A stretch of DNA of 64,000 nucleotides from Lacrimispora amygdalina. Its GTDB lineage: Bacteria > Bacillota > Clostridia > Lachnospirales > Lachnospiraceae. Below the pieces are notes generated by a model. That model worked only from the letters and a program-made list of their open reading frames with translations, ran no database searches and was not told where the DNA came from. This document shows, in pieces, positions 30,193 through 44,597 of this stretch (position 1 is its first letter; the number at the start of each line of letters is the position of its first letter). The stretch covers positions 1 through 64,000 of the forward strand of contig NZ_QOHO01000053.1 of the NCBI RefSeq assembly GCF_003432035.1. The letters are read 5' to 3'. The position numbers and the translations under genes were made by a program.

Positions 30193-31095
30193 TTAAAATG
30201 AAGGAACAACCGCTCCGTCATAGGTATCTTCAATAAACTTTTTAACGGTATCACTGGTTAAAGCTTCTACAAGAGCTTTTGTCTTATCGTTTGCTTCATC
30301 TCCCTTGCGGACTGCAATAATATTGCTGTAACGGGTCGCTGCTGCAGAGGATGCATCTTCAACGGCAAGTGCATCTGAAACCTTTAAACCTGCATCAATG
30401 GCATAGTTTCCGTTGATAACCGCTACATCCACATCACCGAGAGAACGGGGAAGCTGGGCTGCCTCTACCTCAACAATTTTAAAGTTCTTGTCATTTTTTA
30501 CAATATCATTCTTGGTTGCTTCCAGACCAACGCCTTCTTTCAGCTGTATAAGACCTTTGTCAGCCAGAAGATTTAACGCTCTTGCTTCATTGGATACATC
30601 ATTAGGTACCGCGATCTGTGCGCCTTCTGCAAGATCGTTAAGAGATTTGCTCTTTCCTGCATAGATTCCGTATGGCTCATAATGTATGGATCCGGCACTG
30701 ACTAAATCGGTTCCTTTTTCTGCATTGAACTGATCTAAATAAGGCTGATGCTGGAAGTAGTTTGCGTCTAAATCGCCGGAGTCAAGTGCTACGTTTGGCT
30801 GTACATAATCGGTATATTCCTTTACAACCAGCTCATATCCCTTTTCCTTTAAGATATCTTTTGCAGCATTTAAAATCTCTGCATGTGGAGCGGGTGTGGC
30901 TCCTACTACGATTTTCTCCAGCTTGCCTGAAGCCTCTGTCTTGCTTTCTGCTTCTGCCTTTGTCTCAGCAGCCGTAGTTTCTGTTTTTGAATCTGCTGCA
31001 GCCGTGGTAGCCGGTGCTTCTTTGCTTCCTGCGCAGCCGGTCAGTGCTCCTGCCAAAAGCAGGGTTGCGGTTAAAGCATAAAAAGATTTTTTCAT
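30193..31095 (-). CDS. metQ: MetQ/NlpA family substrate-binding lipoprotein
   Basis: A 300-residue lipoprotein that binds methionine (or a related amino acid) outside the cell for the MetNI importer. It has a signal peptide and lipobox LTGC (Cys near 21), a low-complexity Ala/Thr/Glu linker (about 25-60), and the mature domain (KIVVGATPAPHAEIL ... LDSGDLDANYFQHQPYLDQFN). Third gene of metN-metI-metQ, 46 nt after metI, with AGGAGG before the ATG and a terminator after it. Regulation is discussed at the leader (32.85-33.12 kb). Confidence 0.95.
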   Translation of the reverse strand: MKKSFYALTATLLLAGALTGCAGSKEAPATTAAADSKTETTAAETKAEAESKTEASGKLEKIVVGATPAPHAEILNAAKDILKEKGYELVVKEYTDYVQPNVALDSGDLDANYFQHQPYLDQFNAEKGTDLVSAGSIHYEPYGIYAGKSKSLNDLAEGAQIAVPNDVSNEARALNLLADKGLIQLKEGVGLEATKNDIVKNDKNFKIVEVEAAQLPRSLGDVDVAVINGNYAIDAGLKVSDALAVEDASSAAATRYSNIIAVRKGDEANDKTKALVEALTSDTVKKFIEDTYDGAVVPSF

Positions 31096-31141: not shown

Positions 31142-31807
31142 CTATTTTATTCGCTTGTCGCTCACTCTGGAAAGCTTCATGCCTGCCTCCTGAATAACCT
31201 GGACAATGAGGACAAGGATGGCTACTGTTATAAACATCATCTGTGTCTGATAACGGTAGTATCCGTATTTGATGGCAATATCGCCCAGACCGCCTCCGCC
31301 TACAAAGCCTGACATGGCAGAATAGGAAAGAATGGTTGTGATGGATAAAGCTGCTCCTACTAAAAGAGAAGGCTTTGCCTCCGGCAGAAGAACCTTCCAG
31401 ATAATCTGCATGGCAGATGCTCCCATGGACTTGGCAGCCTCAATCACCCCTGCATCCACTTCTTTAAAAGAGGACTCCACTACTCTTGCAACATAGGGCG
31501 CAGAAGCGATCACCAGAGGCGGAATTACCGCTTTTGCCCCGAGAGTGGTTCCCACAATCGCTTTGGTAATGGGGATTACCATAATCAGAAGAATAATAAA
31601 AGGTACGGAACGAAGCAGATTAATAATCAGCCCCAGCGTTTTCTGCAGCCAGGGAATGGGATAAATTCCATCTTTATCCATGACAATGAGAACAATTCCT
31701 AACGGAATTCCGATTAAATAGGCAAAAAAGGAAGAGGTAAATGTCATGAATAAAGTTTCCCATATTCCTAATTTCAGCATCTCTATCGTCGCAGCATCAA
31801 AGGTCAT
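31142..31807 (-). CDS. metI: Methionine ABC transporter permease
   Basis: A 221-residue inner-membrane permease with five membrane segments. The conserved cytoplasmic loop that docks the ATPase is visible as EAAKSMGASAMQIIWKVLLPEAKPSLLVG (near 142-170). It begins 11 nt inside the end of metN (overlap), with GAGGAGGTG as SD, so the two are translationally coupled. Confidence 0.96.
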   Translation of the reverse strand: MTFDAATIEMLKLGIWETLFMTFTSSFFAYLIGIPLGIVLIVMDKDGIYPIPWLQKTLGLIINLLRSVPFIILLIMVIPITKAIVGTTLGAKAVIPPLVIASAPYVARVVESSFKEVDAGVIEAAKSMGASAMQIIWKVLLPEAKPSLLVGAALSITTILSYSAMSGFVGGGGLGDIAIKYGYYRYQTQMMFITVAILVLIVQVIQEAGMKLSRVSDKRIK

Positions 31808-32819
31808 AATCCTTCACCTCCTCAAAATTAATCTTTGCAGTCTTCAAATAATTTAAAATACGGTTCTGGTCAATCTCTTCTTCGGGAAGCTGAATCACCA
31901 TCTGCCCCATGGCGGTGCCTCCAATATCCCTTGTTTCCGCATGCATAATATTCACCGGCACCTTGCAGGCAAGTATCATATTGGAAAGAACCGGTTCAAA
32001 GGACGAACGTCCGTCAAAGGAAATGCGGATTCTTCTGTTATTTCCAAACCCAATTACCTGTTCCGCCGCATCTCCAAGAATCAGCTGTCTTCCGATTTTG
32101 GATTTGGGTCCGGAAAAGATGTCAGTGACGCAGCCAACTTCTGCGATATGACTCTGATCAATGATTGCAACCCGGTCACAGATCGCTTCTATAACCGTCA
32201 TCTCATGAGTGATCACCACAACGGTAACTCCCATGTTTTTATTGATTTCTTTTAAAAGCCCCAGTATGGACTTTGTGGTATTGGGATCCAGCGCACTGGT
32301 GGCCTCATCGCAAAGCAGAATCTTGGGGTTTGTGGCCAGCGCTCTTGCTATGGCAACTCTCTGCTTCTGGCCTCCGGAAAGCTGGGAGGGATAGGCTTTC
32401 GCCCTTTCCTTCAGACCAACCAGCTCCAGCAGTTCCATGGCTCTTTCCACTGCTTCCTTTTTCGAAACATTGGCAATTTCCAGAGGGAAGCATACATTCT
32501 GAAGCACATTTCTCTGGGCAAGTAAATTAAACTGCTGAAAAATCATGCCCATGGATTGTCTTGCCAGCCTCTGCTGCCTGGAACTCATGGCTGAAAGACT
32601 CTGGTTTTCAAAAAGCACATCGCCGGATGTGGGAACCTCTAAATAATTGATACAACGGACGAGGGTGCTTTTACCGGCTCCGCTTAAACCGATAATTCCA
32701 AATATCTCCCCCCGTTCAATGGATAGATTGATATCATCTAATGCTTTAATGGGACCGTTTGAGGTTTGAAACTCTTTCCCCAGTCCGACCAGCTGAATAA
32801 TAGGCTCTACTGACTGCAT
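31797..32819 (-). CDS. metN: Methionine ABC transporter ATP-binding protein
   Basis: A 340-residue ATPase with Walker A GLSGAGKST (near 44-52), signature [15 protein letters not shown], Walker B KILLCDEATSALD and an H-loop (VVITHEM). The C-terminal NIL domain (about 260-340) is the part that in MetN binds methionine and shuts transport down when it is plentiful. AAAGGAA lies 7 nt before the ATG. It is the first gene of metNIQ and is preceded by a terminator and a Met/Cys-rich leader ORF. Confidence 0.96.
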   Translation of the reverse strand: MQSVEPIIQLVGLGKEFQTSNGPIKALDDINLSIERGEIFGIIGLSGAGKSTLVRCINYLEVPTSGDVLFENQSLSAMSSRQQRLARQSMGMIFQQFNLLAQRNVLQNVCFPLEIANVSKKEAVERAMELLELVGLKERAKAYPSQLSGGQKQRVAIARALATNPKILLCDEATSALDPNTTKSILGLLKEINKNMGVTVVVITHEMTVIEAICDRVAIIDQSHIAEVGCVTDIFSGPKSKIGRQLILGDAAEQVIGFGNNRRIRISFDGRSSFEPVLSNMILACKVPVNIMHAETRDIGGTAMGQMVIQLPEEEIDQNRILNYLKTAKINFEEVKDYDL

Positions 32820-32845: not shown

Positions 32846-32904
32846 AAAAAGGCCGCAAGCCATGCACAGACCTGCGACCTGAAACTTCCGCATATGCGGT
32901 TTCC
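32846..32904 (-). terminator. Attenuator upstream of metN
   Basis: On the minus strand GGTCGCAGG (from 32879) pairs with CTTGCGGCC (ending 32851; two wobbles) and is followed by TTTTT (32846-32850), 27 nt before metN: an intrinsic terminator inside the leader. Just upstream is a perfect palindrome CCGCATATGCGG (32888-32899), flanked by GAAAC and GTTTC. The same GAAAC can also pair with GTTTTC a few bases further upstream, so alternative hairpins are possible, as expected of an attenuator. I have not computed folding energies. Confidence 0.78.
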
Positions 32905-32941
32905 AGAAAACTCCAATCACATTCTATACAAATGAATTCCT

Positions 32942-33037
32942 TTATCGGTTTTTTACGCATCCGGCGAAACAACACATCATCATACACATGCCGTTCATCT
33001 GATCCATATTCATCTGCATAGCTGTTAACCGTCTCAT
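32942..33037 (-). CDS. Met/Cys-rich leader peptide of metNIQ (31 codons)
   Basis: ATG at 33037, stop TAA at 32942-32944. The SD AAAGGAG (33046-33052) is spaced 8 nt. Of 31 residues, nine are Met (1, 7, 9, 11, 14, 17, 19, 20, 21) and four are Cys (18, 22, 23, 27), including the run MCMMMCC at 17-23; the last residues are VKNR. Its own SigA promoter lies 59 nt upstream and an attenuator follows before metN. This fits a leader peptide whose translation senses charged tRNA-Met, and perhaps tRNA-Cys, and sets read-through into the importer. An independent metal-binding micropeptide is an alternative. Not found in any leader family I know. Confidence 0.75.
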   Translation of the reverse strand: MRRLTAMQMNMDQMNGMCMMMCCFAGCVKNR

Positions 33038-33095
33038 GGCAGCCGCTCCTTTCCCTAAATCCTACGGATATAGTAGGTATATCTTTATGAGGCGT

Positions 33096-33124
33096 ATTTT
33101 ACGCTCTCTTATCCGATTTGTCAA
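33096..33124 (-). promoter_or_regulatory. SigA promoter of the metNIQ leader
   Basis: Perfect TTGACA (33119-33124), a 17-bp spacer and TAAAAT (33096-33101) on the minus strand. The start point would be near 33089, giving a leader of about 270 nt before metN. A small hairpin, CCTAC/GTAGG, lies between the start point and the leader ORF. Confidence 0.85.
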
Positions 33125-44346: not shown

Positions 44347-44597
44347 AAAAGCCCTCTGCATCCGAAGATACAAAGGGCGAATAAACGCGGTACCACCTTT
44401 ATTATGGCAGATTCAGCCATATCTTTAGAGCCTTTAACGGGGCCATGCGTGAAAGCTTACTGTATGATAAAATTCAGCCTTCCGGTTCCGAAGCTACCTT
44501 CCGCATACACTGCCTTAACCGCCTTTCAGCCAGCGGACGGTTTTCTCTTTCAGGGTTATGTGCGTACTCCTCTTCTTCCATACCTTTTCCTGTTATC
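44347..44597 (-). promoter_or_regulatory. T-box leader of valS, specifier GTA (Val)
   Basis: The minus strand has the T-box motif AAAGGTGGTACCGCG (44386-44400), a Stem I internal loop with AGTA on one side and GAAG-GTA-GC on the other (specifier GTA at 44495-44497, a valine codon), and a terminator GCCCT / AGGGC with a T-run (44346-44378). The layout parallels the thrS T-box, including the GAAG before the specifier. Confidence 0.92.

Follow-up and report, generated by a model that had tools for sequence, protein, structure and literature searches.

A probable methionine-sensing, ribosome-mediated attenuator upstream of metNIQ in Lacrimispora and other Clostridia

Anatomy of the metNIQ leader

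The window analysed here, a stretch of 64,000 nucleotides from contig NZ_QOHO01000053.1 of Lacrimispora amygdalina, carries on its minus strand an ABC transporter operon, metNIQ, preceded by a promoter, a short open reading frame (ORF) rich in Met and Cys codons, a set of segments with alternative pairing partners and an intrinsic terminator. The features are:

33119..33124 (-): -35 element, TTGACA, read directly.
33096..33101 (-): -10 element, TAAAAT, with a 17-nt spacer to the -35 element; read directly, kept in relatives.
33061..33077 (-): small 5' hairpin, CCTAC/GTAGG, between the transcription start and the leader Shine-Dalgarno sequence.
33046..33050 (-): Shine-Dalgarno sequence of the leader ORF, AGGAG; read directly, kept in relatives.
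32942..33037 (-): leader ORF, 31 codons, MRRLTAMQMNMDQMNGMCMMMCCFAGCVKNR; reading frame preserved in all 34 aligned leaders.
33009..33021 (-): region 1, CTATGCAGATGAA, codons 6-10; when free, predicted to pair with region 2.
32969..32994 (-): ORF-internal hairpin, codons 15-17 with codons 21-23, from RNAalifold.
32915..32936 (-): region 2, TTCATTTGTATAGAATGTGATT, the partner common to regions 1 and 3.
32881..32903 (-): spacer hairpin with a GAAAC/GTTTC pairing, kept in close relatives only.
32860..32879 (-): region 3, terminator 5' arm and loop; predicted to pair with region 2 (antiterminator) or region 4 (terminator).
32846..32880 (-): intrinsic terminator, hairpin 32880-32850 and T-run ending at 32846; 96% of cells paired, covaries.
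31797..32819 (-): metN, ABC transporter ATPase (Pfam ABC_tran and NIL).
31142..31807 (-): metI, BPD permease (Pfam).
30193..31095 (-): metQ, substrate-binding NlpA lipoprotein (Pfam).

The original prediction for this locus, made from the sequence alone, had named a consensus promoter, a 31-codon ORF with a good Shine-Dalgarno sequence holding nine Met and four Cys codons (MCMMMCC at codons 17-23), a terminator with a T-run shortly before metN, and the absence of S-box and T-box motifs. These observations hold: the promoter reads TTGACA-17-TAAAAT at 33124-33096, every count for the ORF is right, the terminator spans 32880-32846 with 26 nt between the end of its T-run (32846) and the start of metN (32819), and an Rfam scan of the leader matched neither the T-box (RF00230) nor the SAM riboswitch (S-box, RF00162) family model. 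The 5' hairpin was called as terminator-like on the opposite strand, and relatives carry a stem of other sequence at its place, as judged by eye from the alignment.

Distribution of the leader upstream of metN

Conservation ahead of metN in relatives, which had been proposed as a check, was found throughout the genus: the Met/Cys-rich leader lies upstream of all 24 metN orthologues in the 25 Lacrimispora genomes searched (the 25th, which has no metN orthologue, is 67% complete), and conservation covers the promoter, the Shine-Dalgarno sequence, codons 7-11, the terminator and a block that follows the leader stop. In two records named Lacrimispora, MetN is 96% (L062) and 86% (L065) identical to that of the window. 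A leader-peptide profile searched against 397 genomes of the family matched 33 at E ≤ 0.1, and in 13 of these the match lies directly before metN (the window's own genome, one congener and 11 loci of nine further genera). The other 20 genomes matched weakly (E of 0.01 or worse), and none of the 17 loci inspected among them adjoins a close metN relative, one (L052) holding an ATPase that is 32% identical. Two genomes, G180 and G137, gave a second match. A profile from distant leader peptides gave three weak matches in 391 genomes of the class.

A set of 149 metN loci was reduced to 136 by removing those with less than 150 nt upstream or with an identical last 200 nt, and a leader was defined as an ORF led by a Shine-Dalgarno sequence and containing at least nine Met and Cys codons. 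Such leaders occur at 64 of the 136 nonredundant loci, whereas dinucleotide shuffles lead one to expect 0.15; the count of 64 is a minimum, since the threshold misses shorter leaders (L092, L099 and L105). Among the 52 ORFs of at least 150 amino acids in the window, metN alone has such a leader (13 Met and Cys codons; next best, 5). The 64 include 28 of the 80 named loci, among them Enterocloster, Hungatella and Herbinix records and Clostridia bins. An intrinsic terminator lies downstream of the leader in every one of the 64, and by one common measure terminators were present at 64 of 64 loci with the leader versus 32 of 72 without it. A promoter-like site, TTGACN-16/18-TANNNT, lies no more than 140 nt ahead of the leader ATG at 62 of the 64 loci, a raw count with no shuffled control. 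On a tree of 121 rows (15 loci dropped), the distribution of leader versus other arrangements needs 13 changes, a number to be read with many deep branches weak and no shuffled labels.

Several smaller observations concern the variety of these upstream regions. A perfect palindrome, GCGTAAAATACGC, spans the -10 element in the window (33104-33092) and recurs in full or nearly so upstream of 30 of the 64 leaders, with three sites in total in the genome; it is a possible operator. L104, L118, L119, L120, L126, L130, L134, L136 and L139 (the last named Oscillospiraceae, the others broadly named Clostridia or bacterial bins) carry metN leaders of a second type, whose peptides resemble MMM..M..MCGMCMMMRAQK and whose terminator lies 16-43 nt past the stop; this type looks like a separate origin. 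In a third type (L076, L077, L078, L096 and L150; Herbinix and other loci), peptides start MRTS or MRTP and carry a Met-Cys pair at codons 8-9. In L102, an Enterocloster bolteae bin, metN comes straight after a frame similar to the terminal part of the M20 peptidase in the window, and no leader separates the two.

Translation and alternative pairings

For comparative analysis we aligned 34 Lachnospiraceae leaders from the 64, leaving out near-duplicates, distant leaders and L042, which was dropped before the pairing counts as its regions 2 and 3 were not recognised. Counted from the start codon, the last conserved Cys column lies a multiple of three nucleotides away in all 34 aligned leaders, over five lengths, and the spacer is in register in 9 of the 34; this frame test is not wholly independent, the ORFs having been picked by in-frame Met and Cys count. 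We infer that the leader ORF is translated, because its length stays a multiple of three while the spacer drifts.

Three pairings link four regions of the leader RNA. Region 1 consists of AUGCAGAUGAA of codons 7-10 (the MQMN codons) together with the preceding two bases; region 2 lies at the leader stop or immediately downstream of it and reads UUCAUUUGUAUGG-A-UUGUGAUU in its common Lacrimispora form; region 3, the terminator 5' arm and loop, reads GGUCGCAA-GU-CUGUGCAGG; and the terminator is closed by region 4. The 2:3 antiterminator of the common Lacrimispora sequence is formed by UUUGUAUGG:CUGUGCAGG and UUGUGAUU:GGUCGCAA. Across the 34 leaders, 91% of cells are paired for 1:2, 88% for 2:3 and 96% for 3:4, compared with at most 53% overall (at most 52% for 2:3) when the partner was slid by 1-3 columns. 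The loop of the terminator is conserved too, which no terminator needs but which pairing with region 2 would require.

Covariation differs among the three pairings. For the terminator (3:4) it is strong, with 16 double-change cells, a number matched by none of 500 shuffles. For 1:2 it consists of one pair within Lacrimispora (five cells, C-G to U-A; matched by 1 of 500 shuffles), with none above shuffles in leaders of other genera, for which 18 of 20 rows were used. Changes in 2:3 are mostly one-sided and G-U tolerant, and its double-change pairs were matched by 245 of 500 shuffles; in the 18 leaders of other genera its outer helix is 95% paired and its inner half 69%, neither half exceeding shuffles. 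Thus, of the covarying terminator and antiterminator that the original prediction had suggested looking for, the terminator covaries, whereas the antiterminator pairing is kept but with compensatory change no greater than in shuffles. The ORF-internal hairpin shows six double changes in the 18 leaders of other genera (matched by 3 of 1,000 shuffles) and no covariation signal within Lacrimispora; it may shorten the 1:2 loop.

The GAAAC segment that had been proposed as shared by alternative hairpins does pair in the window (32903-32899 with 32885-32881), but it is unconserved in most relatives, and we ruled these hairpins out as the switch.

A model for control by methionyl-tRNA

Together, these features suggest, with a probability of roughly 0.84, that the leader is a ribosome-mediated transcription attenuator that reads the charging of elongator tRNA-Met and thereby controls metNIQ. 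The locus has a promoter and a short ORF led by a Shine-Dalgarno sequence, enriched cognate codons and an intrinsic terminator before the first gene, and in silico the control codons are placed so as to free the antiterminator in most of the Lacrimispora leaders folded. As far as sequence and folding models go, the features of a trp-type attenuator appear to be present, except for conservation of the antiterminator by compensatory change. The alternative pairings and the relevant codons are those that folding and conservation point to. With sufficient methionine, the leader would be translated beyond region 1, after which region 2 would be engaged by region 1, or a ribosome completing the leader would sit beside it; in both cases region 3 would be free for region 4, the terminator would form and transcription would end. 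With Met-tRNA scarce, a ribosome would stall at Met codon 7, 9, 11 or 14, covering region 1, so that region 2 could pair with region 3, the terminator would be blocked and metNIQ would be transcribed.

To identify the stalls predicted to induce, RNA was folded to the end of region 3 under a thermodynamic model with an assumed ribosome footprint masked, using subsets of the 34 leaders (19 in one run, 20 in another). With no ribosome, eight Lacrimispora leaders formed 1:2 at 0.83-0.99. Among 14 Lacrimispora leaders, placing the A site at codons 3-14 gave 2:3 values that were for the most part 0.5-0.9, and with the A site at codons 16-30 most values were close to 0. Exceptions were low 2:3 at early positions (L001 at codon 9, L007 at codons 9-11, much of L014, and L017 and L019 beyond codon 10) and partial 2:3 at late ones (L009 at codons 17-18, L018 at codons 26-28 and L023 at codon 27). 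With the ribosome at the stop codon, 2:3 returned to 0.6-0.75 in L001, L007, L011 and L023, which a clean off-state would not do. Because 2:3 is high with the A site early and near 0 with it late, the inducing codons in most species are predicted to be Met 7, 9, 11 and 14.

Four leaders of other genera (L041, L044, L069 and L146) were predicted to form 2:3 by default; a ribosome near the stop abolished it in L044, L069 and L146, and no ribosome position did so in L041. In this model, the off-state of these four would have to work differently. A generic, unsupervised test of terminator-arm sequestration found no clear gating in distant leaders and was uninformative for most loci.

Methionine, cysteine and rival readings

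After the start codon, Met accounts for 26.6% and Cys for 10.4% of codons in the 64 leaders, compared with 2.9% and 1.7% in MetN, although selection of the leaders by Met and Cys count inflates these leader figures. The two amino acids are placed differently: of the 104 Cys codons in the 34 aligned leaders, 103 fall at codon 15 or later and one in codons 2-14, compared with 146 of 285 internal Met codons within codons 2-14. Because the leaders share ancestry and the early codons are in part dictated by region 1 pairing, we attach no probability to these counts. According to the folding model, a single ribosome stalled at Cys codons is expected to keep the operon off in most cases.

The original prediction had the operon sensing low charged tRNA-Met and/or tRNA-Cys, which, taken as equal sensing, means that any stall at Met or Cys would antiterminate. 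This we consider doubtful. The Cys enrichment over MetN, with at least one Cys in each of the 64 leaders, speaks for it (inflated, again, by selection), as does folding under other assumptions: if the ribosome blocks pairing across itself, or if a second ribosome is queued ten codons behind, most folded leaders form 2:3 when stalled at codons 17-23. At codon 27, a lone ribosome already yields a partial antiterminator in L018 and L023. However, nearly all Cys codons lie at positions from which one stalled ribosome would in most cases not disturb 1:2. The conservation of codon 22 may have a different origin, this codon being part of the ORF-internal hairpin with covariation in other genera, and region 1 pairing by itself excludes Cys from codons 7-10. 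Methionine sensing is well supported, whereas neither single-ribosome folding nor Cys position supports equal sensing of cysteine; correspondingly, the folding check that had been proposed gives the antiterminator for early Met codons and mostly not for Cys codons with one ribosome.

A more elaborate and improbable proposal combines a position-coded gate for two amino acids, or a queue of ribosomes in its stead, with an exchange of sensors. In the gate, Met codons of region 1 would switch the operon on, and Cys codons past region 1 would stall the ribosome at places where it no longer covers region 1, such that Cys shortage alone would keep the operon off. In the queue, the Met clusters at codons 7/9/11 and 17/19/21, ten codons (about one ribosome) apart, would act through a second ribosome. 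Finally, several lineages of Clostridia would have swapped the leader device with Met T-boxes and S-boxes.

Two further readings dispense with attenuation altogether. Met and Cys bind soft metals, and the ORF, whose peptide is conserved in frame, could encode a functional Met/Cys-rich small protein, such as a metal binder, with the terminator merely a transcript boundary. We regard this as very unlikely: the ends of the peptide vary, its conserved core coincides with the RNA pairings and has near-invariant wobble bases, and the profile found no paralogous leader elsewhere in the window's own genome (E ≤ 0.1). We give still less credence to a ligand-binding riboswitch or protein-bound leader with an incidental ORF. 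The leader is indeed structured (fold z of -2.7) and contains conserved elements, yet no Rfam family reaches its threshold, Met codons are among the most conserved parts, and distant leaders share ORF composition, promoter and terminator despite very different sequences. Rfam matches to RsmY and PhotoRC-I in the leader fell far below gathering scores and were rejected. The preferred reading remains attenuation by a ribosome reading Met codons. The original interpretation is thus partly supported: ribosome-mediated attenuation of metNIQ draws support from the in-frame ORF, the covarying terminator and the trp-like pairings, but the switch differs from the GAAAC hairpins.

Relation to known systems

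In the trp, his and leu attenuators of Proteobacteria, a promoter, a Shine-Dalgarno sequence and a short ORF of cognate codons precede competing 1:2, 2:3 and 3:4 pairings, a terminator and the cognate operon. The metNIQ leader resembles them in its promoter, Shine-Dalgarno sequence, short codon-rich ORF, competing pairings, terminator and cognate operon; it differs in its Met signal, its transporter operon and its occurrence in Clostridia, and in that every leader peptide begins with the very amino acid that is sensed. The ilv-leu leader of Staphylococcus aureus (PMC5794164) is likewise a case of leader attenuation in a Firmicute, but it responds to Leu (and Ile) and precedes a biosynthetic operon. 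For Bacilli, his leader peptides have been predicted ahead of hisZ and a hisS paralogue (PMC2965389); there too a leader peptide of a Firmicute takes the place of a T-box, but the amino acid (His) and the genes differ. Mycobacterium and other Actinobacteria have leader ORFs with Cys codons at cys genes, with Cys runs near the stop, and share with metNIQ the use of sulfur amino-acid codons in a leader ORF; no conserved terminator hairpin is reported for them (PMC1262725). Corynebacterium ilvB uses a uORF (PMC10272879). Control of methionine transporters is usually attributed to riboswitches, and L. lactis met uses a Met T-box (PMC7058034). The Met T-boxes and S-boxes of met transporter operons serve the same gene in some relatives and the same area of metabolic signalling, but there the RNA binds tRNA or SAM directly.

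Literature searches, which covered open-access papers, listed no Met leader-peptide attenuator. If the attenuation model holds, methionine would, as far as these searches show, join the amino acids sensed through leader peptides, and the device would stand ahead of metNIQ in many Clostridia, a setting in which riboswitches are usually invoked. Because each leader also starts with fMet, severe Met starvation should stop leader initiation, and the ribosome-free state is predicted to be off in the folded Lacrimispora leaders and on in L041, L044, L069 and L146. How an attenuator senses the initiator amino acid is a design question that this raises and that is directly testable.

Sensors at metN and elsewhere in the genome

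Neither a T-box nor an S-box was found in the 14 leader loci scanned (of the 64). At the 72 metN loci without the leader, all scanned with Rfam over about 500 nt upstream, there were nine T-boxes, four S-boxes and 59 loci with neither. Sensor exchange is therefore seen only in part, 59 of the 72 leaderless loci lacking both sensors. The six T-boxes read at the sequence level all have AUG at what we take to be the specifier position, so methionine is likely to be the signal for metN in relatives with a T-box or S-box, and the leader stands where they have such sensors. Orthologous metN genes under a T-box, an S-box or the leader offer a natural comparison of sensors for one transporter. In the genome, the sole S-box match precedes an ORF that we read as metK. 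In the window, the sole Rfam match at gathering level is an ordinary T-box at 44370-44589, upstream of a large ORF that, from its sequence, we take to be valS.
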